A DNA stretch of 64,000 bases, taken from an uncultured Archangium sp. GTDB lineage: Bacteria > Myxococcota > Myxococcia > Myxococcales > Myxococcaceae. Both the position numbers and the translations under genes were made by a program. The notes below the pieces were generated by a model that saw only the letters and a list, made by a program, of their open reading frames with translations, searched no databases and was not told the origin of the DNA. Below are positions 43,685-63,700 of the stretch, piece after piece. Each line of letters starts with the position of its first letter. Positions within the stretch are counted from its first letter, which is position 1. The stretch is taken from assembly GCA_903905455.1 (NCBI GenBank), contig CAIVGN010000189.1:62001-126000 (forward strand). Reading direction: 5' to 3'.

Positions 43685-44797
43685 ATGACGTTCCTCGGCC
43701 CGCTGCTCGCGCTCAGCCTGATGGTGGCCCCGCCCCCGGCACTCGACGCCGAGGCCCCGCACATCCCCTCCGCCGGGCTGCTCACCGCGGGCGCGCTGCA
43801 GACCACCGAGCTCACCACCCCGCGCTTCCGCATCGTGCACACTTCCCGCGCGAAGGGCGCGGCCGAGGTGCTCGCCCGGGACATCGAGGCCATGCGCGAC
43901 GACATCGCCGGGCTCCTGGGCCGCGACTGGCCGGGGGTGACGGAGATCCGCCTGGGCTACGGGCGTGAAGAGTACGAAGCGCTCGCGCTGCCCGGCGGTC
44001 ACCCGCCGAGCTGGGCCGTCGCCCTCGCCTACCCGGGCAAGAACATCGTGCTGGTCGAGGCACACTCCCTGGTGAACGGCGAAGGCCCGCTGACCCTGCG
44101 GCACGAGCTGGTGCACGTCGCGCTGGGGCAGTTCGGGAGCGTCTGGCCGCACTGGTTCCAGGAAGGCCTCGCGCAGGAGCTGACCGGCGAGCGCAAGTGG
44201 CGCATGGAGCACGTGGCCACCCTGACCCGCGCTGTCACGCAAGATCGGGTGTTCGACTTCGACGATCTCGCCGAGCACTTCCCGGCGTACCCGGACGACG
44301 TGGAGATCGCCTACGCGCAGAGCGTGGCCTTCGTGGAGTTCTTGAGGGATCGCAACGGGTCGATGGCCTTCCAGCGGTTGATCGATCGCGTGGCGGGCGG
44401 CGACGGCTTCGAAAAGGCCTTCGGCGTGGCGTTCTACGTGCCGCTCTCGATGGAACAGGACGCGTTCAAGAGGGACCTCCCGCGCCGCTACCCGTGGTGG
44501 CCCCTGCTGCTCTCGGGAGGCACGCTGGTGTGGGGCGGGACGTCGGCGTTGGTGGTGCTGGCGTACTTCCGAAGGCGCCGCGCGGTGAAGGATCTCCGGG
44601 CCGAGCAGCTGCGGGTGGAGACGCTGCACGAGGCCGCGAAGTCGCTCCTGGGCTTGCCGGCGGCGAACGAGGACGTGGTGCTCGAGGACGACCCCTTCGA
44701 GGGCACGCCCATGCCGTGGGTGGTGAACATCGTGCGCTTCCACGACGCCCCGACGCTTCCCTCGCCCGCCCAGGGAGCGAAGAAGACCTCGGCCTGA
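43685..44797 (+). CDS. Membrane-anchored gluzincin-type peptidase (peptidase MA-like)
   Basis: 370 residues. It has an N-terminal signal-like stretch (MTFLGPLLALSLMVAPPPA), an extracytoplasmic domain with the zinc motif HELVH in LRHELVHVALGQFG, and WFQEGLAQELTG downstream, where the Glu is a likely third ligand as in peptidase MA-like proteins. A membrane segment near 275-297 (WPLLLSGGTLVWGGTSALVV) precedes a basic cytoplasmic tail. The motif set suggests an active metallopeptidase facing the periplasm, substrate unknown. Its stop codon directly abuts that of the convergent methyltransferase gene (tgatca). Confidence 0.8.
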   Translation: MTFLGPLLALSLMVAPPPALDAEAPHIPSAGLLTAGALQTTELTTPRFRIVHTSRAKGAAEVLARDIEAMRDDIAGLLGRDWPGVTEIRLGYGREEYEALALPGGHPPSWAVALAYPGKNIVLVEAHSLVNGEGPLTLRHELVHVALGQFGSVWPHWFQEGLAQELTGERKWRMEHVATLTRAVTQDRVFDFDDLAEHFPAYPDDVEIAYAQSVAFVEFLRDRNGSMAFQRLIDRVAGGDGFEKAFGVAFYVPLSMEQDAFKRDLPRRYPWWPLLLSGGTLVWGGTSALVVLAYFRRRRAVKDLRAEQLRVETLHEAAKSLLGLPAANEDVVLEDDPFEGTPMPWVVNIVRFHDAPTLPSPAQGAKKTSA

Positions 44798-49400: not shown

Positions 49401-50074
49401 CGCCTTCGCCCCTCCTCAGCCTCGGTCTCGGACTCGCGGGGGCGCTGGTCGGCCTCTTCATCGGCTTCGCGCCTTCCCCGGAGGCGGCCTCGTTCAGGCG
49501 GGCGCGGCGCGCCAACTCGGGCGACCTGCACGAGGGTGACTTCGTGCTGCTCCAGGGGGTGCTCACGGCCCAGGATCCGTTGCTCGGCGCGATCAGCCAG
49601 GACACCGTCGGCGTGCAGCGCCTGATGCACCACCAGCACGGCGAGACCGCCATGCCGCAGGACCACGATCGGCGTGACGTCTCCGCCCAGGAACTCCAGG
49701 TCGCCCTCGGCCTCGCGGTGCGCGACGATCTCGGGACCGTCCTCATCCAACCCGAGGAAGGCATGCTGTACACCCGGCACGGCACGAGCGGCACCGCGCA
49801 GAGCGTGGGCACCCGCTGGAACTCCATCGCGCCCTCCGAGACGCTGCGACTGTTCGAGCGGAGCATTCCCCTCGGCGCGCCGGTGGTGGTGATCGGCGAG
49901 GCCACCTGGAACGGCACGACGTGGGCCGTGCGAGGCCGCGACCTGCTCCTGTCCGACTTCTCGCGCGAGGCCCTCGAGTCGCGTTTCGCCAGCGGTCGCG
50001 TGCTCGGCCTCGCGGTGATCACGCTCTCGATCGTCGGTGGGGTCGGCGCGGCGCTCGCGCAACTCTGGCCCTGA
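49397..50074 (+). CDS. Two-helix membrane protein with MUL1/GIDE-like middle domain
   Basis: 225 residues, GTG start overlapping the previous gene. It has one membrane segment at each end (LLSLGLGLAGALVGLFIGFA and VLGLAVITLSIVGGVGAALA). The middle has a strand pattern with FVLLQGVLTAQDPLLGA, GTVLIQPEEGMLYT, RLFERSIPLGAPVVVIGEAT and VRGRDLLLSDFSREAL. The two-helix layout with this domain resembles bacterial relatives of the mitochondrial ligase MUL1 (GIDE family), without a RING domain. The family call is moderate. It is the third gene of the coupled set. Confidence 0.6.
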   Translation: MTPSPLLSLGLGLAGALVGLFIGFAPSPEAASFRRARRANSGDLHEGDFVLLQGVLTAQDPLLGAISQDTVGVQRLMHHQHGETAMPQDHDRRDVSAQELQVALGLAVRDDLGTVLIQPEEGMLYTRHGTSGTAQSVGTRWNSIAPSETLRLFERSIPLGAPVVVIGEATWNGTTWAVRGRDLLLSDFSREALESRFASGRVLGLAVITLSIVGGVGAALAQLWP

Positions 50075-50107: not shown

Positions 50108-53100
50108 ATGGTCCGCCGCGAATTGGCCGGGACTCTGCGCAGATGGCTGGGGCTTCAGGAGGGAGAAGGCCCCCGCACGTCTCGCCTGTTCTCCTTCATC
50201 TTCTTGCTGACGGCCGCGGCGGTGCTCGCCAAGTCGGCACAGCGCGAGATCTTCCTCGCGGCCTACCCGCGCAGCGCCATCCCCGACGCGTTCCTGATCT
50301 CCGCCGGCGTGCTGGCCGCCGCCTCGCTGGGCATCACCGCGATGACCGAGCGCATGAGCCTGGTGCGCCTGATGCGCTGGCTCCTCGCGGCGGGCGCGGG
50401 GCTGCTGGCGCTCACCTTCGTCACCGTGCGCGCGTGGCCGGCCGGCGGGCCCATGACGGCCTACGTCACGGTGGAGGTGCTGATGTCGCTGCTCCTGGGC
50501 CAGGCCTGGGCGGTGGCGGCGGAAGCGGTCGACGTGCGCAGCGCCAAGCGCTTGCTGCCGGTCATCGGCCTGGGCGCCGGCCTCTCGTGGACCGTGGGTG
50601 GCTTCGCGGTCAGCGGCCTGGCCCGGCTGCTGGGGCCCGCGAGCCTGCTGCTGCTCGGTGCGGGGGCGCTGATCGGCGCGCTGGGCGTGCTGCAGCTCGT
50701 CGCGAAGCGGGACATCGCCGTCGAGCCGCGCAAGGCGCCGGTGGTGGGCTTCTTCACAGGCCTGGCCGCGGGCCTGCGCTCCATCTTCACCGAGCCGCTC
50801 ACGCGCGTGCTCGCGGCGATCATCACCATCGAGCTGGTGGTGGAGAAGATCACCGACTTCCAGCTCTTCGCCCTCGCGCAGCAGCGCTTCGCGGGCCAGC
50901 CCGGCGGCGTGGCCGCGTTCATGGGCCTCTTCTTCGGCGTCACCGGGGCCATCACCCTGCTCGCACCGCTGGTCTCCGGTCGCCTGCTGCAGGCCTTCGG
51001 CAGCACGCGCGCCCTCGTCGCCGGCCAGCTATGGCTGCTGCTGGGCGCGGTGGCCTTCGTCGCCTTCCCCGGGTTCGCGGTGGTGGTGATGCTGACCGGC
51101 GGAGACCGGGTCATCAAGCAGGCGCTCACCGCACCGGCCCGCTCGCAGATCTTCGGCGCCATGCCCGCCAAGCGTCGCGCCCAGGCCGGCGCCCTGCTGC
51201 GCGGCGTGCTCGCCGCCTTCTTCGGCGCCATCGCGGCCCTCGTGCTCAAGGCCCTGCCCTCCTCGCTGCCGGTGCAGTACCTGTCCGTCGGCGCCGCGGT
51301 GTTGTTGGTGGGCCTCGTGGTGCTCACCGCGCGCACGCTGCGCAAGGCCTACCTCTCGGCCCTGCAGAGCTCCGTCGACACCAGCCGGCTCGATCTCGAC
51401 GGCCCCGACTCCAAGCGCCCGCTCTACCGCGAGCAGCTCTCCATGCTCGAGGACGAGCTGGCCAGCGGCGACGAAGGGCGCGCCCTGCTCGCCGTCTCGG
51501 TGCTGGGCACGGCGGACCCCTCCACGACGCGGCCCCTGCTCCACCGGGCGCTGAAGCACGACTCGGCCGAGGTGCGCGCGCTCGCGGCCGTCACCCTGGG
51601 CAAGGCCGGCCACCCGCAAGACGTCGCCCCGCTGATCGCCACCCTGACTGCCGCCACCGGGGACGACGAGCGGGCCGCGTGCCTCGAGGCCCTCGCCGAG
51701 CTCCAGGCCGTGGCCGCGCTCCCGGCCGTCACCGCGCTGTGCGACGCCAGCGCCGCCGAGGTCCGCGCCCTGGCCCGCGTCTGCCGCGCGAGCCTGCTCG
51801 AGGTGGCAGGCACGCCGGGCGCCGACGCCGAGCTGGCGACCATCGAGGCGATGCTCGTCTCCGGCAACGACGACGAGCGCGAGGCGGCGGCCTGGGCCAT
51901 CGGCCGCATCCCCCTGCGCACCGAGGAACTCCAGGCCCGCTTCGCCCCGCTGCTGGGGGACGGCTCGATCGAGGTGCGCCGCGCGGCCATCGGCGCCTCG
52001 GCCCAGTTCGCCGACGAGGACATCCTCAAGCAGCTCGTCTCCGCCCTCGAGGAGCCGGCCATCTCCGCCGCCGCCTTCGACGCCTTCACCCGCCTCAAGG
52101 ACGAGGGCGTCAGCAGCGTGGAGAAGGTGCTCACCGGCGCCTCCCCCGACCTCGTCTCGCGAGCCGCGGCGGCGCTGGCCCAGGGCAGCGGCGGGCGCGC
52201 CACCGACGTGCTGCAGCGCTGGCTCGATCACGAGGCGCCCCAGGTGCGCTACCGGGCCACGCGCGCGCTGGTGCAGCGGCGCCGGACTTCGACATGGCGG
52301 CCACCGGGCGAGGCGGTGCTGCTGCGCTTCATCGAGGCCGAGCTCGCCGTCGGCTACCGCTACCACGCGGCCCTCGCCGGCCTCGCGTCCCAGCTCGAGG
52401 CGGGCGACGCCGAGATGCGCTTCGTCGCCGGTGAGCTCCAATCCCGCGCCCAGGAGACCGAGCGCCGGCTGCTCGCGCTGGTGGGCGTGGTGGCCGACCC
52501 GCGCATCGCCCGGCTCTCGCACCACCTGCGCGACGCGAGCCCCCAGGTCGCCGCCCGCGTGCTCGAGCTGGTGGAGCAGTCGCTGGACCAGCGGCTCTCG
52601 GCCCTGGTCATGCCCTTCCTCGAGCGGCAGAGCGCCGAGAAGAAGGCGAAGATCGGCGTCGAGCAGTTCCACGTGCCCAGCACCTTCGCGGCCGACCCGC
52701 TCGCGGCGCTGCTCTCGCTCAACGACGAGCACCTGAAGCTGGTGGCGTACATGGCCTTCAAGGGCCGCCTCGGCGACCTGCCGTCGCTGACGAATGAGGA
52801 GGACGCCTTGTTGCGATTGGTCGAGCGAGTCAGGTTCTTGCGCAGCGTGCCCGTCTTCAAGGAGCTCAGCCCCGAAGACCTGATGAAGCTGGCGGAGATC
52901 GCCACCTCGTCGCACCACCCCGGCGGCACCGTCATCTTCCGCGAGGGCGACCCCGGCGACGTGCTGTGCATGGTGGTCAGCGGCCTGGTCGCCATCCGCG
53001 ACGGACAGACGGTGATCGCCACCCAGAAGCCCCACGACTTCTTCGGCGAGCTGGCGCTCTTCGATCAGGAGCCGCGCTCGGCAGACGCCGTGGCCATCGA

Positions 53101-53284
53101 AGACACGGTGCTGCTGGAAATCGGCGGCGCCGATCTCGACGCGGTGATGGAACGCCGCCCGGAGATCGCTCGCGAGATCATCCGCGTGCTCGCGCGGCGC
53201 CTGCGAAACACCACCAAGACCATGGTCGGGCGCATGGTCACGGCGGCTGCCCTCCCTGAGTCAAAAAAGGGAGAAAACCGATGA
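50108..53284 (+). CDS. Nucleotide-transporter-like (NTT/MFS) - HEAT - cyclic-nucleotide-binding fusion
   Basis: 1058 residues in three parts. Residues about 20-420 are a 10-12-helix transporter resembling ATP/ADP translocases or MFS carriers (FIFLLTAAAVLAKSAQREIF). Residues about 440-880 are HEAT repeats (EVRALAAVTLGKAGHPQDVA, EVRRAAIGASAQFADEDILK). Residues about 905-1035 form a cyclic-nucleotide-binding domain: VFKELSPEDLMKLAEIA, IFREGDPGDVLCMVVSG, FFGELALFDQEPRSADAVA and LARRLRNTT. The FGELALFDQEPRSA core is the phosphate-binding cassette. The protein looks like a transporter or membrane sensor gated by a nucleotide. The transport substrate is unknown. Confidence 0.83.
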   Translation: MVRRELAGTLRRWLGLQEGEGPRTSRLFSFIFLLTAAAVLAKSAQREIFLAAYPRSAIPDAFLISAGVLAAASLGITAMTERMSLVRLMRWLLAAGAGLLALTFVTVRAWPAGGPMTAYVTVEVLMSLLLGQAWAVAAEAVDVRSAKRLLPVIGLGAGLSWTVGGFAVSGLARLLGPASLLLLGAGALIGALGVLQLVAKRDIAVEPRKAPVVGFFTGLAAGLRSIFTEPLTRVLAAIITIELVVEKITDFQLFALAQQRFAGQPGGVAAFMGLFFGVTGAITLLAPLVSGRLLQAFGSTRALVAGQLWLLLGAVAFVAFPGFAVVVMLTGGDRVIKQALTAPARSQIFGAMPAKRRAQAGALLRGVLAAFFGAIAALVLKALPSSLPVQYLSVGAAVLLVGLVVLTARTLRKAYLSALQSSVDTSRLDLDGPDSKRPLYREQLSMLEDELASGDEGRALLAVSVLGTADPSTTRPLLHRALKHDSAEVRALAAVTLGKAGHPQDVAPLIATLTAATGDDERAACLEALAELQAVAALPAVTALCDASAAEVRALARVCRASLLEVAGTPGADAELATIEAMLVSGNDDEREAAAWAIGRIPLRTEELQARFAPLLGDGSIEVRRAAIGASAQFADEDILKQLVSALEEPAISAAAFDAFTRLKDEGVSSVEKVLTGASPDLVSRAAAALAQGSGGRATDVLQRWLDHEAPQVRYRATRALVQRRRTSTWRPPGEAVLLRFIEAELAVGYRYHAALAGLASQLEAGDAEMRFVAGELQSRAQETERRLLALVGVVADPRIARLSHHLRDASPQVAARVLELVEQSLDQRLSALVMPFLERQSAEKKAKIGVEQFHVPSTFAADPLAALLSLNDEHLKLVAYMAFKGRLGDLPSLTNEEDALLRLVERVRFLRSVPVFKELSPEDLMKLAEIATSSHHPGGTVIFREGDPGDVLCMVVSGLVAIRDGQTVIATQKPHDFFGELALFDQEPRSADAVAIEDTVLLEIGGADLDAVMERRPEIAREIIRVLARRLRNTTKTMVGRMVTAAALPESKKGENR

Positions 53285-53410
53285 AGGCCATCGTGCGCGA
53301 AGGTACGCGGACGTGGCCTAACATCTGAAAGTGCCCTGAGATCACCACCTTGCGGACGGGTGCGAGTCGACACATCCTTGAGTCCTCACCAACCCAAGGA
53401 GCCCACACTG

Positions 53411-54091
53411 ATGCGAATTCAGATGTCGACGTTGGCCTTCGTCATTGCCGGTTCAGTCGCGCTGGCTGCTGCCCCCTCGAACGCGCAGACGCAGGCCGAA
53501 GTACAGCTTTGGGACTCCACCTGGGCCGCCTACCAGGCGAACCAGGCGATCCCGCTGGCAGACCGCGGCGTACTCACCGCCTCGCAGGACCTCAGCATCG
53601 TCATCAACGCGCCGATCAAGGACGTCTTCGACATCTACTCGAACGTCTACAACGCGCAGGGCCTGCACCCGTTCCTGATCGGGGTCACGCCCATCCGCCA
53701 CACGAACAACCGCCTCGACTTCATCGCCATGGAAGACATCCCCCTGGGTGACGGCACGATCTTCCACGCGATCACGGTCGCGCAGCAGCGCTTCAACCGG
53801 GCGCAGCGCTACTACGACGCCGACACCTACGACTTCCCCGGCATCATCACGCACCAGCACATCACCTTCACGAAGATCGGGAAGCACCAGACGCAGGTCA
53901 CCGAGCACCTCTCGTTCGAGGCGCCTCCGATCTACATCGGCACCGCGATCCAGGGCGGCGTGTACGCGCACTACCTCGTGCAGCTCGGCCTCAAGGCGAA
54001 GATCGAAGCCGGCCTGCTCACGCCCGTGAAGTTCCCGAAGTGGCTGCCCGGTGCGGCCGCCGACGACTGCGACGACGACAACGACGACTGA
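53411..54091 (+). CDS. Secreted SRPBCC/START-like protein with acidic tail
   Basis: 226 residues from the ATG giving MRIQMSTLAFVIAGSVALAA, a good signal peptide ending near SNAQ. The mature part resembles an SRPBCC lipid-binding or cyclase-like fold: SIVINAPIKDVFDIYSNVYN, IFHAITVAQQRFNRAQRYYD and THQHITFTKIGKHQTQVTEH. It ends with a very acidic tail, ADDCDDDNDD. It is transcribed alone with a terminator downstream. Ligand and role are unknown; the fold call is moderate. Confidence 0.65.
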   Translation: MRIQMSTLAFVIAGSVALAAAPSNAQTQAEVQLWDSTWAAYQANQAIPLADRGVLTASQDLSIVINAPIKDVFDIYSNVYNAQGLHPFLIGVTPIRHTNNRLDFIAMEDIPLGDGTIFHAITVAQQRFNRAQRYYDADTYDFPGIITHQHITFTKIGKHQTQVTEHLSFEAPPIYIGTAIQGGVYAHYLVQLGLKAKIEAGLLTPVKFPKWLPGAAADDCDDDNDD

Positions 54092-54206: not shown

Positions 54207-54752
54207 ATGAGTGAGAGCTGGGTTGTTTTCAAACACTGCGCCGAGGCCCTGCTTCGGAGCATCGACACGCGCATGACCCCCACCCTGAAGGCCAAGCTGC
54301 AGGCCTCGGGCATCAGCACCGAAGCGACGCTGCTGCCGGCGTATGAGTACGAGAAGTGGAAGGAGATCCTCGCGCTGTCCGCGCAGGAGCTGATGCCGGG
54401 CGTCGACCCCCAGACGGCCCACCACACGCTCGGCGAGTGGCTCACCGACGCCTACTTCGAGAACTTCATCGGCCGCGCGCTCAAGCCCATCGTGAAGTTG
54501 ATCGGCATTCGCCGCGCGCTGGGCCGCATGCGGCAGAACTTCCGCGTGGCCAACAACTACGCCGAGGCCGAGGCCACCGACGTGGGGCCAGGGCACGTGC
54601 ACCTCCGCATGAACGACCGCGGCCTGATGGCCTACTTCAACCGCGGCATCCTCGACCGCGGCCTGCGCATCACCGACCCGAAGAACCTGCGGGTCGAGAT
54701 CGCCAGCGAAGACGCCACCGGCGTCGTGTATTCCATCCGCTGGGACGTGTAG
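54207..54752 (+). CDS. DUF2378 (TIGR02265) myxobacterial protein
   Basis: 181 residues. DUF2378 is a family found almost only in Myxococcales, often in many copies per genome and of unknown function. The features are LLRSIDTRMTPTLKAKLQAS, a turn TLLPAYEYEKWKEILALSAQ, the block LGEWLTDAYFENFIGRALKP and a C-terminal beta strand VVYSIRWDV. It is soluble with no signal peptide. It converges on a second member of the same family 13 bases away. Confidence 0.85.
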   Translation: MSESWVVFKHCAEALLRSIDTRMTPTLKAKLQASGISTEATLLPAYEYEKWKEILALSAQELMPGVDPQTAHHTLGEWLTDAYFENFIGRALKPIVKLIGIRRALGRMRQNFRVANNYAEAEATDVGPGHVHLRMNDRGLMAYFNRGILDRGLRITDPKNLRVEIASEDATGVVYSIRWDV

Positions 54753-54765
54753 CGCTCGGGCTGTC

Positions 54766-55299
54766 TTAGACGGCCCAGGTGATGTCGATGGTGAAGTGTT
54801 CTGCCTTCACCTCCGCCACCTGGACCGTCGGCTTCACCTTCACCTGTCGCAGCACCGCGTCGACCGCGCCGGCCGTGAACCAGGGCACGCCCTGATCGCC
54901 GAAGAGCGTCACCGCGTAGTGCCGATCACCGAGCTTCTTCACTTCCGGCGGCTTGAGCGCGCCCACGATGCCGCTGCTGAAGAACCGCGGCAGTCGCATG
55001 CACAGCGTGTCCGCCGAGAGGAAGGGCATCGCCGCGTGGATCACCTTGCCCACCAGCGTGCCGAAGTAGCCCTCGACCATGCGCACCCCGAGCTGGAACT
55101 CGGCCGCCGACGGCGACAGCTTGGGGTGGAACTCGAGGCTCGCCAGCTGCAACGTCTTGCGCCAGACCTCGACCGAGTACACCGTCTCCATGCGCAACGG
55201 GTCGAAGCCGACCGCACGCAGCTTGTCGACGAAGGGCCCCTCCACCTTCAACGCCTGAATGAACAACCCCTCGAAAGTACTCGCTGCAATCTGAACCAT
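54766..55299 (-). CDS. DUF2378 (TIGR02265) myxobacterial protein, second copy
   Basis: 177 residues, same family and plan as its convergent neighbour: FEGLFIQALKVEGPFVDKLR, TVYSVEVWRKTLQLASLEFH, LGVRMVEGYFGTLVGKVIHA and a C-terminal strand ending HFTIDITWAV. The two proteins share the fold pattern but are quite different in sequence, so they are not a recent duplication. The function is unknown. It may be transcribed with the upstream YfhO-like gene 86 bases away. Confidence 0.87.
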   Translation of the reverse strand: MVQIAASTFEGLFIQALKVEGPFVDKLRAVGFDPLRMETVYSVEVWRKTLQLASLEFHPKLSPSAAEFQLGVRMVEGYFGTLVGKVIHAAMPFLSADTLCMRLPRFFSSGIVGALKPPEVKKLGDRHYAVTLFGDQGVPWFTAGAVDAVLRQVKVKPTVQVAEVKAEHFTIDITWAV

Positions 55300-57975: not shown

Positions 57976-60759
57976 TTACGGAGTTTTGACCTCGAGCAGC
58001 GTGCGCAACCGCGCGTGCTCGGGGTGGGCCGTGAGGGAATTCCGGGCCCGATTTTCCGCGTCGGCGACGTCGACCCCGGCACTGTGCCACGGAGCCCCTT
58101 CGCGCAGCGAGACCCTCCGCGTCGCCTCGAGCCAGGTGGCCCAGAAATCCGGAGAATCGGGCGACCGCGCGACGAAAGGCGTGAGCACGTCACGGGCCCG
58201 CAGCATGTCCCCTTCGCGCACCGAGGCCTCGGCGTAGGCCTGCGCGGCCTCCACGGAATCACCGGCCGCGTCCATCCACGCCGCGGCCGCCGCGCGCACC
58301 AACGGATCGTCGGGCGGGTGCACCCACGCGAGGCTGGCGTAGAGATCCTTCGCCTCTTCGACCGTCAGCGCGCGGCCTGAGAGGAACTTCGAGAGCTCGA
58401 GGCCACCCCGCTCTTCCGGCAAGCGCCGCGAGTCCGGCACGCGCACGTCGGCGGCCACGAAGTAGGCGATGGGCGAGCCGTACTCGAGGGCGTTGTGATC
58501 GTCGGTGTTCACCGGGCCCTCGCCCCCGAAGCGCTTCTGGGCCTCGTCGGGGTGCACCTGCCGCCCCAGCAACGTGGTCGGCAGCTGGAGGTGGATGCGC
58601 GACAGGTCGTCCCGCACCTTCGGCTGCGCCATGCGCGCGGCGAGCGTCGCGAAGTCGAGCACCTGCGGCTCGCGGCTGGCCACCAGCACCAGGTCATCGG
58701 GGCCGACCCACGTGGTGCCGTGCTCGAAGGACCCGCGCAGCGTGCGCACGACCAACTTCACCAGCGACACCGAGGACTCGTAGGTGTGAATCCACTGCAC
58801 CAGCCGGCCACCGGGTGCGAGCTTGCCCTTCGCCATCTCGAAGAAGTCCCGCGAGAAGAGCCCGGACACGCCCGAGACCCAGGGGTTGCTGGGCACGCTG
58901 ACGATCAGGTCGTACGGCTCCTGAGAGAGCGCGAGGAAGGTGCGCGCGTCTTCGATGTGCACGTGGCAGCGCGGGTCCTTGAAGGCGTCGTGGTGATCGG
59001 GCGCGAAGATCTCTGCGGCCTCGACCACCGCCGGGCTGATCTCCACCACGTCGAGCCGCTCGATGGGATGCGCCAGCAGCGAGCCCGCGGTGATGCCCGC
59101 GCCCACGCCCACCAGCAGCACCCGCTTGACCTCCTTCGGGTGCATCAGCACGCCCAGGTGCGCCGCGAGGATCTGGGTGTCGATGTCCGTGCCGTTCGAG
59201 CCGTCGACCTTGCCGTTGATGCGCAGGTACCGGCGGTCATCGTCTTGCGAACCCACCAGCACCGAGGCGAAGACGTCGTCGCGGTAGAAGCGCACCGTGC
59301 TGCGCGAATGCACCTCGTCGAGGAACTGGGAGTAGCCGTCGAAGCTCCGGTTCCACTCGCGGTAGCGACCCGAAGCCGCGAGCGTCGAGGCCCACCCCGA
59401 GGTCGCCCCCACGGCCACCACCAGGGCGATCGCCGAAGGCACCAGCCACCGCAGCGCCAGCGAACGCGGCACGCCCGAACCGTCGGCGAGCATCGCCCAG
59501 GCCGCGGCGATCAGGTTCGCGATCAACGCCAGGGCCAGGGTGCCCTCGAGGCCGATCAGCGGCAGCAGGAAGAGTCCCCCGAGCAAGGCCCCGCTCACCG
59601 TGCCGATGGTGTTCCACAGGTAGGTCGTGCCCAGGCGCGCGCCGACGTCGCTCATCGCGCGCAGGGCCACGCGGGCCGCCGCCGGGAAGCTCGCCCCCAG
59701 CAGGAAGGTCGGAGGCAACAGCAGCGCCCCGCACACCAGGAAGCTCAGCACCTGGTACGTGCCCCACGTCTGCGGTCCGTGATCGAGCCGCGCGTGCACC
59801 TGCATGAACGCATACGGCAGCCGCGCGTAGGCCGTCATCGACAGCAGCACCGCGAACATCAACGCCAACTGCAGCCGCCCGAACGTCCGCAGCGCGTTCT
59901 CGTCGGGCCGCGTCGAGAGCCAGAAGCTCCCCAGCGAGATGCCCAGGATGAAGGCGGTGAGGATCAGCGTGAACGCGTAGCTCGTGCCCCCGAGCACGAT
60001 GGACAACACGCGGATCCACACCGTCTCGTAGGTCATCGAGGTGAAGCCCGCGAGCGCCGTGCCCACCAGCGCCGCGCGCACCGCGCTCGCCCCGAAGTGC
60101 TGCCCGTCAGCCTCCGACTCGGCGCCCGCAGGCTCCGATGCGAAGGCCCGCCACCCGGCGACCACCGCGGCCGCGCCCAGCAGCAGGTTCACCATCGCGG
60201 CCAGGCGCTCCGAGACCTCGAGGCCCACGCCCGGCACCAGGACCATGCCCGCGAACAGGCAGCCCACCGACGCCCCCAGCGAGTTCACCGCGTAGAGAAT
60301 CGACAGCTGGCGCCGCGCCGAGCCCAGGCGCTCCGTCAGGTGCCGCATCAACACCGGCAGCGTGCCGCCCATGAGCAACGTGGGGACCAGCAGGGCCGAC
60401 GCCGCCAGCCCCAGGCGAGCCGACAACCGCGGCACCCCTTCGAGCCCCGGCGCGATGCGCAGGTACAGCTCGCCGGCCACCGCGAGCACCTTCGGGAACA
60501 CCAGCGCGTAGAGGCCAATGCCCAGCTCCAGCGCCCCGTAGAGCGACAGCGGCCGCTTCGCGCGATCGGCCCGTCGCCCGAAGAGGTACGCCCCGAGCGC
60601 CAACCCACCCATGAACGTCGAGAGCACGATGGCGTGCGCCTGCCCGGTGTTGCCCAGGAGGTTCGCCAGCCGCTTCGACCACGTCAGCTCGTAGACCAGC
60701 CCGGTCGCGCCGGAGAGCAACAACAGGGTGATGACCAGCGGCTGGGCTCGGGACTTCAC
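57976..60759 (-). CDS. Fused MFS-like transporter and spermidine-synthase-like methyltransferase-fold protein
   Basis: About 927 residues from the GTG giving VKSRAQPLVITLLLLSGATG, overlapping the upstream stop by 4 bp (GTGA). The N-terminal half (about 1-480) has about twelve membrane segments. The second half contains a spermidine-synthase-like Rossmann domain: YLRINGKVDGSNGTDIDTQI, VLLVGVGAGITAGSLLAHP, VVEISPAVVEAAEIF and YDLIVSVPSNPWVSGVSGL. A TPR-like tail follows. Such fusions are common in several phyla, and no substrate has been firmly shown. Polyamine synthesis should not be assumed. Confidence 0.85.
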   Translation of the reverse strand: MKSRAQPLVITLLLLSGATGLVYELTWSKRLANLLGNTGQAHAIVLSTFMGGLALGAYLFGRRADRAKRPLSLYGALELGIGLYALVFPKVLAVAGELYLRIAPGLEGVPRLSARLGLAASALLVPTLLMGGTLPVLMRHLTERLGSARRQLSILYAVNSLGASVGCLFAGMVLVPGVGLEVSERLAAMVNLLLGAAAVVAGWRAFASEPAGAESEADGQHFGASAVRAALVGTALAGFTSMTYETVWIRVLSIVLGGTSYAFTLILTAFILGISLGSFWLSTRPDENALRTFGRLQLALMFAVLLSMTAYARLPYAFMQVHARLDHGPQTWGTYQVLSFLVCGALLLPPTFLLGASFPAAARVALRAMSDVGARLGTTYLWNTIGTVSGALLGGLFLLPLIGLEGTLALALIANLIAAAWAMLADGSGVPRSLALRWLVPSAIALVVAVGATSGWASTLAASGRYREWNRSFDGYSQFLDEVHSRSTVRFYRDDVFASVLVGSQDDDRRYLRINGKVDGSNGTDIDTQILAAHLGVLMHPKEVKRVLLVGVGAGITAGSLLAHPIERLDVVEISPAVVEAAEIFAPDHHDAFKDPRCHVHIEDARTFLALSQEPYDLIVSVPSNPWVSGVSGLFSRDFFEMAKGKLAPGGRLVQWIHTYESSVSLVKLVVRTLRGSFEHGTTWVGPDDLVLVASREPQVLDFATLAARMAQPKVRDDLSRIHLQLPTTLLGRQVHPDEAQKRFGGEGPVNTDDHNALEYGSPIAYFVAADVRVPDSRRLPEERGGLELSKFLSGRALTVEEAKDLYASLAWVHPPDDPLVRAAAAAWMDAAGDSVEAAQAYAEASVREGDMLRARDVLTPFVARSPDSPDFWATWLEATRRVSLREGAPWHSAGVDVADAENRARNSLTAHPEHARLRTLLEVKTP

Positions 60760-63700
60760 TGCGTGCGCGCTCCCTGGCGGCGGCGCAGCCACACCAGCGC
60801 GCCGAGCCACAACAACGAGCCCCCGGTCGCCGTGCAGCCGGTCTTCGTCACGCGCTCCGTCGCGACTTCGATGGACCAGCTCTCCATCGAGAGCAGCTCA
60901 TGCCCCCCGAGCCCGACCCCGGCGGAGAAGGTGTACACGCCCAGCGGCGCGTCGACAGCGACCGTGCCGGTGACCGTGCCGTCGTCGGCGAAGACGAGCC
61001 CCGGAGGCAGTTGCCCCTCGCGCCAGAACCACCGCGTGCCCTCGGGCAGCGGCGTGGCGTGGAAGGCCAGCGTCACCACGTCACCCGGCAGCACCAGGGA
61101 CGGCCCGGTGACGGTGCTGGTCACGGTGCCCGGCGCGACGAACACGAAGTAGGTCACCGCGTCGGTACGCCCCTGCCCGTCGACCGCTTCGAGCGTGAAG
61201 TGAAACCGGCCCGGCCGCGTGGGCGTGCCCGAGACGATCAAGGTGTCACCCTGCGAGGGCTCGAGCGCCAGGCCCGTCGGCAGCTCGCCGGCGATGACGC
61301 TCCACTTCACCGGCACCGAGACCGGCGCCCCGCCCGGGTTCACCACCACCACCGACTCGAGGTACTCGCTGCCCAGCAGCGCGTCGGCGAGGTCGCGGGT
61401 GCGGATGGTGAACGGCGAGGCGTCGACGATGGTCACCGTGAACGCGCGCTCGTCGACGTTGCCGATGAGATCGGTCACCCGCACCACGAAGGTGCGGCTC
61501 GTACCCAGGGCGTCCGTCGGCGTTCCGGTGATCACCCCCAGCGACGTGAGCGAGAGCCCCACCGGCAAGATGCCGCTGACGATCTGGAAGCGGTAGTCGC
61601 CCGCGCCACCGGCAGCGCCCAGCGTCGCGTTGTAGGGCACCGAGCGCGTCGGCGCGGGCAACGCATTGGCGTTGATCGCCAGCGAACCCGTCACCGGGGA
61701 GACCCGCAGCGAGCGCGCCACCACCACCGCGCGACCGTTGGCCTGCACCCCGAACAAGACGGTGAAGGCCCCCTTCTGCGTCGGCGTGCCGCTCAGGATG
61801 CCCGCCATCGACAGGCTCAGCCCCGCGGCCAACGACGCCGGGTCCGCGAGCGTGAAGGTGTAGGGCCCGATGCCCCCCTGTCCCTGCAGTTGCACGAAGT
61901 ACGGCAAGCCGAGGTTCGCGTCGGGCAACGCCGGCGTGGCGATGGTCAACGACTGCGCGACGATGTCGGTGCGCGTCCCGGCGAGCCCGTTGTCGCTCTC
62001 GTCACCCTCTTCGAGCACGTTGTCGGGATCGAGCAGCACGCCCACGTAGTACTGCGCACCCGCGAGCGTCGGCGGCAGCCGCAGCACCTCGATCGCCGAA
62101 TCACGCTGGCCCACCGTCAACGACACCGTGCCCTCGCTGACCTCCGCGCCCGACAAGGGGTGGATGCTCAACGGCAGGTCGTCGGTGGTGATGATGGTGT
62201 TGGCCGACAGGTAGTAGCGGTACTTCGCCCCCACGGCGTTGCGGTTGCCGAGGTTGGTCAGCGTGCGCGAGATGACGATCAGCTCGCCAGCCCCGGCGCG
62301 CGCCGGCGTCTGCAGCTCGGCCGCGAGCAGGTTGGGCGACGGGTTGCGCAGCACCACGGGGCTCGACTTCTCGAAGTTGTTCGAGGGGTTGGTCTCGGTG
62401 GTCCCCACGGCCGTCGCCGCGCCGAAGAAGAAGTACGGCTGCACCGGCAACGGCTGACCCTGCACCGTGGTCGTCGGCACCGGCGCGCTCAACAACGGGA
62501 TCCAGCGGCCCTCGCCCGGCGCCAGCGTCTGGCCCGTCACCGTGCCCACCAGCTTGTCCGTCACCGCGTTGAGTGACTCGTTGTCCGACAGGAAGAACGA
62601 GACGACGACGTTGCCGGCCGTCGCGCCACCGATGTTGGCCACGAAGGCCTCGAAGCGCGCGCTCTCGCCGAAGTACGCCGTGGTGAGCTGATCGAACGGA
62701 GCCTGGGCGCGCATCACCCGCACTGCCGTGACCGTGAGATCGGCCTGGCGCACCTGCATCTGCGTGGCCGAGGCCACCACGTTGTTGAGCTCGCTGCGCT
62801 CGGGGATCGAGCCCGCCGCGGGCCCGTCATCCAACTGCATCAGCACGTAGTAGTCGTCGGCCGGGGTGGTGCCGGGCACGGTGAAGGTCAGCGACTGCTG
62901 CACCTGCTGGCCCCCGAGGATGGACAGGGTCTGTGTCGTGAGAAGCCGGTCGTCGACCGAGAGCGTGGTGTCGACCGACGCGTAGAGCTTCACCGAGACG
63001 CTGCCCGCCGGCTCGAAGCCCTGGTTGCTGAACTGCACCGGCACGTGCACCGGGTCGCCCGGGCCCGCCACCGGGGGCGGTCGCACCGACTCGGCGATCA
63101 GATCGGCCCCGCCTGCGTAGGGCACGCTGGAGGCAACCACGTTGTTGAACGGGTTGGCTTCGCCCCCATCGGGCAGCGGGGCGATCGCCGCCAGCACGTA
63201 CCAGGAGCCGCCGTCGGGCCGGGGCACGGTGCCCGTCGACGCCGTGGAGATCCCCCCCAGCGCCGGCAACGACGCCAGGGCCAGAGGAGAAGGCGTGAGC
63301 TGCAGGTCCGCCGCGTCGACCAGCGTGTCCTCGGAGAGGAACAGGTCGTAGGTGAAGGACCCGCTGGGCAACGTGCCGAAGTTCCGCAGCGCGAGCGTGG
63401 TGGCGATCGACAGGTTCGCCCCGGCCTGGGTGATGCCGTCGATGCGCAGGTTCAGCGCCTGGAGATCGACGCCCGGCGGAGGCCCGAAGCGGATGTACGA
63501 GATCGGCGTGCCCGTGCCCCCGGGATCGAAGCTGGTGATCGCACAGTCGTTGGTGCAGGTGCTCAGCCCGCGTGTCGCCGCCGTGCCGCTGGGGCTCTCG
63601 ATGCCGATGGTCGCGGTGATCACCGTCGCGCCCGAGCCCGTCATCGTGCCGTAGTAGAACTCGACGATCCCGTTGGCCCACAGGCGCACCTGGAAGTTCA

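Follow-up and report, generated by a model that had tools for sequence, protein, structure and literature searches.

A gene in the window, by which we mean the whole 64,000-nucleotide stretch of DNA that was analyzed, encodes a single myxobacterial protein that joins an NTT-type membrane domain, a HEAT-repeat region, and a cyclic-nucleotide-binding domain (cNBD). This layout has been known since 2017, and the variant described here is new in combining an intact sensor site with altered carrier charges. The product is most likely a membrane protein under cAMP/cGMP control, and we tentatively propose that its re-wired NTT-type domain still carries some anionic solute, though not ATP/ADP by the known route. 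The features discussed below are as follows.

49421..50074 (+): upstream neighbor with a weak, sub-threshold GIDE (PF12483) match; 33 bases lie between its stop and the ATG of the fusion gene, and co-transcription is possible
50108..53284 (+): complete gene of an NTT-HEAT-cNBD triple fusion, window-type (A) subfamily; ATG start, one ORF, 1058 amino acids; supported by Pfam matches and by copies from four further genomes
50108..51418 (+): NTT-type membrane domain, residues 1-437; hhalign match to an NTT-HEAT profile (99.95%), a weak TLC match, and a low-confidence model whose top two PDB matches are AtNTT1
50867..50869 (+): F254 (L in one of five window-type genes); K in 4/4 canonical NTTs and 32/34 NTT-HEAT proteins
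51188..51202 (+): G361...R365; K...D in canonical NTTs, K (34/34) ... D (32/34) in NTT-HEAT proteins
51419..52777 (+): HEAT-repeat region, residues about 438-890; Pfam HEAT_2, HEAT, and HEAT_EZ, paired helices in the model, and a shuffle score against the paralogue C67
52805..53236 (+): cNBD with C-helix, residues about 900-1043; PF00027 at 2e-21, Clr (7PZA) at 6e-23
53045..53080 (+): phosphate-binding cassette, residues 980-991 (GELALFDQEPRS), with G980, E981, R990, and S991; alignment with Clr
53210..53215 (+): T1035-T1036, aligned to Clr T140-T141 (nucleobase contacts from both dimer subunits); alignment with Clr

Three domains in one reading frame

The fusion is neither a chance arrangement nor an assembly join. 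The latter follows from the copy in genome G005, which spans the whole fusion in one frame, and from the copies in G004 and G014, which stay in one frame from residues 22 and 116, respectively, where their contigs start. The source assembly (G000) comprises 8.6 Mb in 251 contigs and is 97.84% complete. All three domains of the window gene, as identified with Pfam and hhalign, lie in a single reading frame that is open from end to end. An earlier sequence-only reading had claimed that a carrier-like membrane part, a HEAT array, and a cNBD are united in one protein, and this claim is borne out.

In the C-terminal part, cNMP_binding (PF00027) is matched at residues 938-1016 (2e-21; 76.2 bits against a Pfam cut-off of 27.5). 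HEAT_2 matches four stretches of the protein (6e-18), and the AlphaFold2 model of the HEAT region consists of paired helices, with a mean pLDDT of 71-87 for residues about 441-600 only and lower values for the rest. In a comparison with C67, an NTT-HEAT paralogue encoded in the same genome, z-scores from 30 shuffles are 22 for the NTT part and 20 for the HEAT part. The Pfam TLC profile (PF03219) gives a partial, weak match at residues 124-173 (18.2 bits, below the 21-bit cut-off), and the protein misses the NCBIfam TIGR00769 cut-off (15.5 versus 387.2 bits).

By profile comparison, homology of the membrane domain to NTTs holds indirectly, via the NTT-HEAT family. The window-type domain matches a profile of 15 NTT-HEAT proteins over 450 columns at the probability listed above, and that profile in turn matches canonical NTTs at 99.2%, whereas the window type and canonical NTTs compared directly reach only 3.3-3.8%. 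AlphaFold2 models built from three alignment rows each (full protein, pLDDT 44; membrane domain alone, pLDDT 46 and pTM 0.44) are too weak for site mapping, including the placing of the changed residues discussed below relative to a cavity. A Foldseek search with the membrane-domain model ranks AtNTT1 in its ADP/Pi- and ATP-bound forms first and second at TM-scores of 0.34-0.38, with many MFS-type carriers close behind. The low-confidence model helices and the hydropathy peaks are compatible with 11-12 membrane helices, although the hydropathy threshold is also passed in the soluble part.

Relation to known systems

Three arrangements were reported by Major et al. in 2017 (PMC5381601), namely NTT fused to HEAT, such a fusion gene with a separate cNBD gene behind it, and the full NTT-HEAT-cNBD fusion. 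In that report, Major, Embley and Williams raised the idea that cAMP might adjust ATP uptake and called the functions of the fusions unknown (PMC5381601), and a 2019 review restates the proposal for NTT-HEAT-cNBD fusions (PMC6995639). No functional study of such a fusion was found among the literature matches listed, a search for which most subscription papers were outside the scope.

In uniting these three domains in this order, the window protein resembles the fusions of Major et al., which likewise occur in free-living bacteria and for which cAMP control was considered. Unlike those fusions, its subfamily forms a separate long-stem clade, carries a full cyclic-nucleotide site, and has given up charges that the others keep. 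The NTT and HEAT parts are also homologous to those of NTT-HEAT proteins encoded next to a separate cNBD gene (C67 and the 19 separate cNBD genes considered below), but these proteins are unfused and keep the NTT-HEAT charges, and their cNBDs have no TT pair on the C-helix. Canonical NTT translocators (AtNTT1, 9J3J-9J3M; ADP,ATP carrier, 9J3N/9J3O) share with the window protein a membrane-domain kinship via NTT-HEAT proteins, a glutamate at E245, and an acidic residue at E385. They differ in having neither HEAT repeats nor a cNBD, and in possessing K155, K527, and further charges that are absent from the window protein. Finally, S. meliloti Clr (7PZA/7PZB) has in common with the window cNBD the cyclic-nucleotide site and its six contact residues. 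However, Clr acts as a transcription factor and carries a DNA-binding domain, whereas none was found in the window protein, which has a membrane domain instead.

A complete cyclic-nucleotide site

Clr is the closest PDB relative of the window cNBD (E 6e-23). It binds both cAMP and cGMP, using G85, E86, R95, and S96 as phosphate and sugar contacts and T140 and T141, from both subunits of the dimer, as contacts to the base (PMC10127613). These six residues align with G980, E981, R990, S991, T1035, and T1036 of the window protein and are kept in all five window-type genes. The phosphate cassette, described as intact in the sequence-only reading, is indeed complete in its four key residues, and the suggestion of cyclic-nucleotide sensing gains strength for cAMP and cGMP from the presence of all six Clr contacts. 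Nothing in the analysis pointed to a c-di-nucleotide ligand, also entertained in that reading, and it was set aside because all six site contacts match those of a cAMP/cGMP receptor. The same genome yields 20 matches to class III cyclases, and the ligand can therefore probably be made there.

The complete site distinguishes the window type from its relatives. Among the other Myxococcota triple fusions examined, neither the G/E/R/S set (0/24) nor the TT pair (0/24) is present, and the separate cNBD genes located near NTT-HEAT genes have G/E/R/S in 17 of 19 cases but never TT on the C-helix (0/19). These residue counts were made after removal of eight loci that repeat genes under other ids, and the loci behind the family counts are the best matches plus some hand-picked ones. 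Altered cassettes in the 24 other triple fusions (L066-L072, L010, L013, L016, L055, and others) read, for example, GGHA, GDRP, or GSRP. Because the G/E/R/S cassette is altered in 24 of 24, the comparison suggests that many fused cNBDs in Myxococcota may have given up cyclic-nucleotide binding.

A membrane domain with altered charges

Four AtNTT1 residues that are important for transport, K155, E245, E385, and K527, show strong conservation across bacteria (PMC4256464). ADP binding is gone in the K155E and K155R mutants, ATP binding is gone in K527E, and K527R binds ATP only above 1 mM (PMC3306366). We placed these four positions on the solved AtNTT1 chain (K, E, E, K) with a single hand-derived offset of 84. 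The window protein has F62 at K155, E123 at E245 (kept), D250 at E385 (a conservative change), and no lysine at K527. The K155 column holds Y in 33 of 34 NTT-HEAT and 24 of 24 other fused rows, and K occurs at K527 in no fusion row of the alignment. Since these lysines are missing from the other fusion types as well, their losses appear to be older and not particular to the window subfamily.

Other changes are confined to the window type. They are K254 to F (L once), K361 to G, and D365 to R. The equivalents of all three are kept in 4/4 canonical NTTs, and NTT-HEAT proteins keep them in 32/34, 34/34, and 32/34 cases, respectively. The corresponding residues in the remaining 24 triple fusions are R (24), R (23; R/Q overall), and D/E (24). 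A P307-to-Q change is likewise particular to the window type, with P found in 4/4 canonical, 34/34 NTT-HEAT, and 24/24 other fused proteins. At R45, D46, Y338, and D342, the window type departs from both canonical NTTs and NTT-HEAT proteins. These positions are, however, mostly altered in the other triple fusions as well, to different residues. In these membrane-domain counts, identical rows were counted once, and the G018 gene consists of two fragments, such that window-type positions are readable in four or five of the five genes. Judged by NTT substrate residues, the carrier-like character of the membrane part is thus upheld only in part. E245 is retained and E385 is acidic still, whereas both lysines and the K254, K361, and D365 equivalents are gone.

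Charges have also been gained. R46, E47, D60, E242, E246, K247, and R365 are invariant in all four or five readable window-type rows, and canonical rows are uncharged or oppositely charged there. Furthermore, R334, K337, and R345 of the window type occupy positions with K in 4/4 canonical NTTs, and no basic residue stands at the R334 and R345 positions in any of the 34 NTT-HEAT or 24 other fused proteins. The invariant new charges, together with these three basic residues, suggest that the membrane part has been re-wired rather than merely decayed. An anionic substrate, even a nucleotide bound in another way, is possible for such a domain. The same evidence bears on the earlier suggestion that transport has been lost, which is possible given that several NTT-family charges are gone, but which sits less easily with the new invariant charges and the basic residues at three canonical positions.

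Distribution and selection

Copies of the window gene in four other genomes are 85%, 86%, 62%, and 78-84% identical to it. Window-type genes (62-86% identity) are rare, being present in 5 of the 96 family genomes, which fall in 3 of 26 genera, and in 3 of 6 genomes of the same genus; among the three same-genus genomes without one, two are just 79-80% complete. Across 195 genomes of the phylum, the next-best match scores 236 bits, whereas every window-type gene reaches at least 919 bits with its main piece. A tblastn search of 72,556 plasmid records matched 13, none of which reaches 80% query coverage, and thus no plasmid-borne copy was found in that set; the 12 matches listed involve the cNBD only.

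Estimates made with our own Nei-Gojobori script, with the G018 copy left out, give a dN/dS below 1 in every domain against the three copies compared, at 0.05-0.23 for L003 and L002 and 0.24-0.53 for L008. Against L003 and L002, the cNBD is the most constrained domain (0.05), followed by the HEAT region (0.12-0.21) and the NTT part (0.21-0.23). Against the more distant L008, the values are 0.44 for the NTT part and 0.24 for the cNBD. The G018 copy (L009 and L062, G018:C533) shifts frame near residue 850, between the HEAT region and the cNBD, which might be an error in the metagenome-assembled genome or a true split of the fusion.

Paralogues and origin of the fusion

The genome that carries the window gene holds at least three NTT-HEAT members. 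Besides the window gene, these are the C67 NTT-HEAT gene, which has a cNBD gene of its own lying downstream, and another complete triple fusion, C46, which is 26% identical to the window gene and has an altered sensor site. All 20 of the NTT-HEAT ORFs that were followed to a stop codon, on 17 stretches, lack a fused cNBD.

In trees of the NTT domain, the window type is a clade of its own (100/100) whose long stem measures 3.5 and 3.0 changes per column and joins the rest at no well-resolved point. The second of these trees was built from 12 of 34 NTT-HEAT rows, 12 of 24 fused rows, and 4 of 6 window-type rows, leaving canonical rows aside. The cNBD tree unites the other fused domains with the separate NTT-linked domains, and it puts the window type with stand-alone CAP-type domains (96/89), a hand-picked and uneven sample of 14; one duplicate G018 cNBD was removed. 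Constraining the window cNBD to group with the other fused domains gives a worse fit that is not rejected (p-AU 0.065), and neither is a grouping with fused plus separate cNBDs (p-AU 0.21), in tests run without three very long fused rows (L074, L075, and L076). A single origin shared with the fusions of Major et al. is therefore not rejected, and a second, independent origin of the window-type fusion is offered as a lead only.

Among the matches listed, canonical NTTs that match over most of the PF03219 profile were seen only in family f22 (L035-L039; G172, G173, G176, G178, and G179). This family belongs to the same phylum and has small genomes (0.5-1.8 Mb), a pattern that suggests dependence on a host; the G176 match is in two pieces.

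Gene neighborhood

Between positions 44,001 and 58,000 of the window and the loci of four relatives, matches lie solely within the fusion gene, and thus no shared flanking DNA was detected. This comparison is thin, since it covers both flanks for L003 (about 6.0 and 4.4 kb), the downstream flank for L002, and less than 1 kb each for L008 and L009. A protein-level comparison that included a positive control likewise showed no conserved neighbor within these flanks; the upstream GIDE-like gene is covered by the DNA comparison alone, which detected no trace of it next to the L003 copy. Scanning for consensus promoters turned up no promoter-like site. Downstream, positions 53360-54091 (+) encode a 243-amino-acid protein with a sub-threshold polyketide-cyclase/lipid-transport match (17.7 bits against a cut-off of 27.4). 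It is followed by a facing pair of DUF2378 genes at 54207-54752 (+) and 54766-55299 (-), with 13 bases between them. Farther along, a 944-amino-acid ORF at 57976-60810 (-) has a spermidine-synthase domain at residues 550-672 behind a long N-terminal part.

Possible functions of the window protein

According to the mechanism that we tentatively favor, class III cyclases would make cAMP (or cGMP), which would bind the C-terminal CAP-type domain. This domain may pair with a second copy as in Clr, as suggested by the two threonines on the C-helix. The HEAT arm would relay the resulting change to the NTT-type membrane domain and control it, and the membrane domain would still move an anionic solute, though not ATP/ADP by the known route. 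Transport of another anionic solute is proposed because several NTT-family charges are gone, new invariant charges have appeared, and some canonical basic positions are occupied. Several points caution against this proposal. The purifying selection and the new charges could equally reflect a receptor, and R334, K337, and R345 would also fit a remaining nucleotide site. In addition, the losses at D46, Y338, D342, and R45 are not particular to the window subfamily, and dN/dS is higher against L008.

A receptor is the closest rival, and we consider it somewhat less likely than the re-wired carrier. The protein would be a membrane-anchored cAMP/cGMP receptor without transport, whose NTT fold serves as anchor and signal transmitter and whose HEAT arm brings in a partner once the cNBD has taken up its ligand. 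Loss of the conserved NTT and NTT-HEAT charges beside an intact and highly constrained cNBD is consistent with such a role, as is the known action of HEAT repeats in protein-protein interaction (PMC5381601). However, the membrane domain is under purifying selection in the near pairs and has gained invariant charges, which would be needless for a mere anchor, and no conserved partner gene lies beside it within the reach of the relatives' flanks. More improbable, in our estimation, is a cAMP-gated carrier of nucleotides (ATP/ADP, NAD, or other), which is one proposal of Major et al. for the fusions generally and in which the energy state, read as cAMP, would adjust exchange. The NTT kinship, the acidic residues at E245 and E385, the basic residues at three canonical positions, and the ranking of nucleotide-bound AtNTT1 as the top two PDB matches of the weak model all fit this idea. 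Ordinary ATP/ADP exchange nevertheless looks less likely, given that AtNTT1 mutants at K155 and K527 lose or nearly lose binding (PMC3306366) and the window protein has F and no counterpart there (as is also true of other fusion types), and given that F, G, and R replace K254, K361, and D365 despite their retention in 4/4 canonical and 32-34/34 NTT-HEAT proteins. It is also conceivable, but quite improbable, that the fusion is a relic whose cNBD merely dimerizes or folds with no ligand, as appears to be the case for other Myxococcota triple fusions. The absence of the G/E/R/S set from all 24 of those makes non-binding fused cNBDs seem common in the phylum, but G, E, R, S, T, and T are all retained in 5/5 window-type genes, and dN/dS of the window type is lowest in the cNBD.

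Returning to the re-wired carrier, we see a broader version of it as possible but doubtful, namely that the window type arose separately as a triple fusion and that its complete Clr-like sensor gates an NTT-fold carrier (or transceptor) re-charged for a different solute, whereas in the phylum's other triple fusions the charges stayed more carrier-like and the sensor site was lost. One genome offers a set of proteins for testing such ideas, comprising the window gene with its complete sensor, the C46 fusion with its altered sensor, and the C67 NTT-HEAT protein with its separate cNBD. The split among them predicts that the window type would bind cAMP or cGMP without exchanging ATP and ADP, and that the C67 NTT-HEAT protein would be the better candidate for a nucleotide carrier. 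If cAMP or cGMP does gate the window protein, it would be a secondary carrier under cyclic-nucleotide control.
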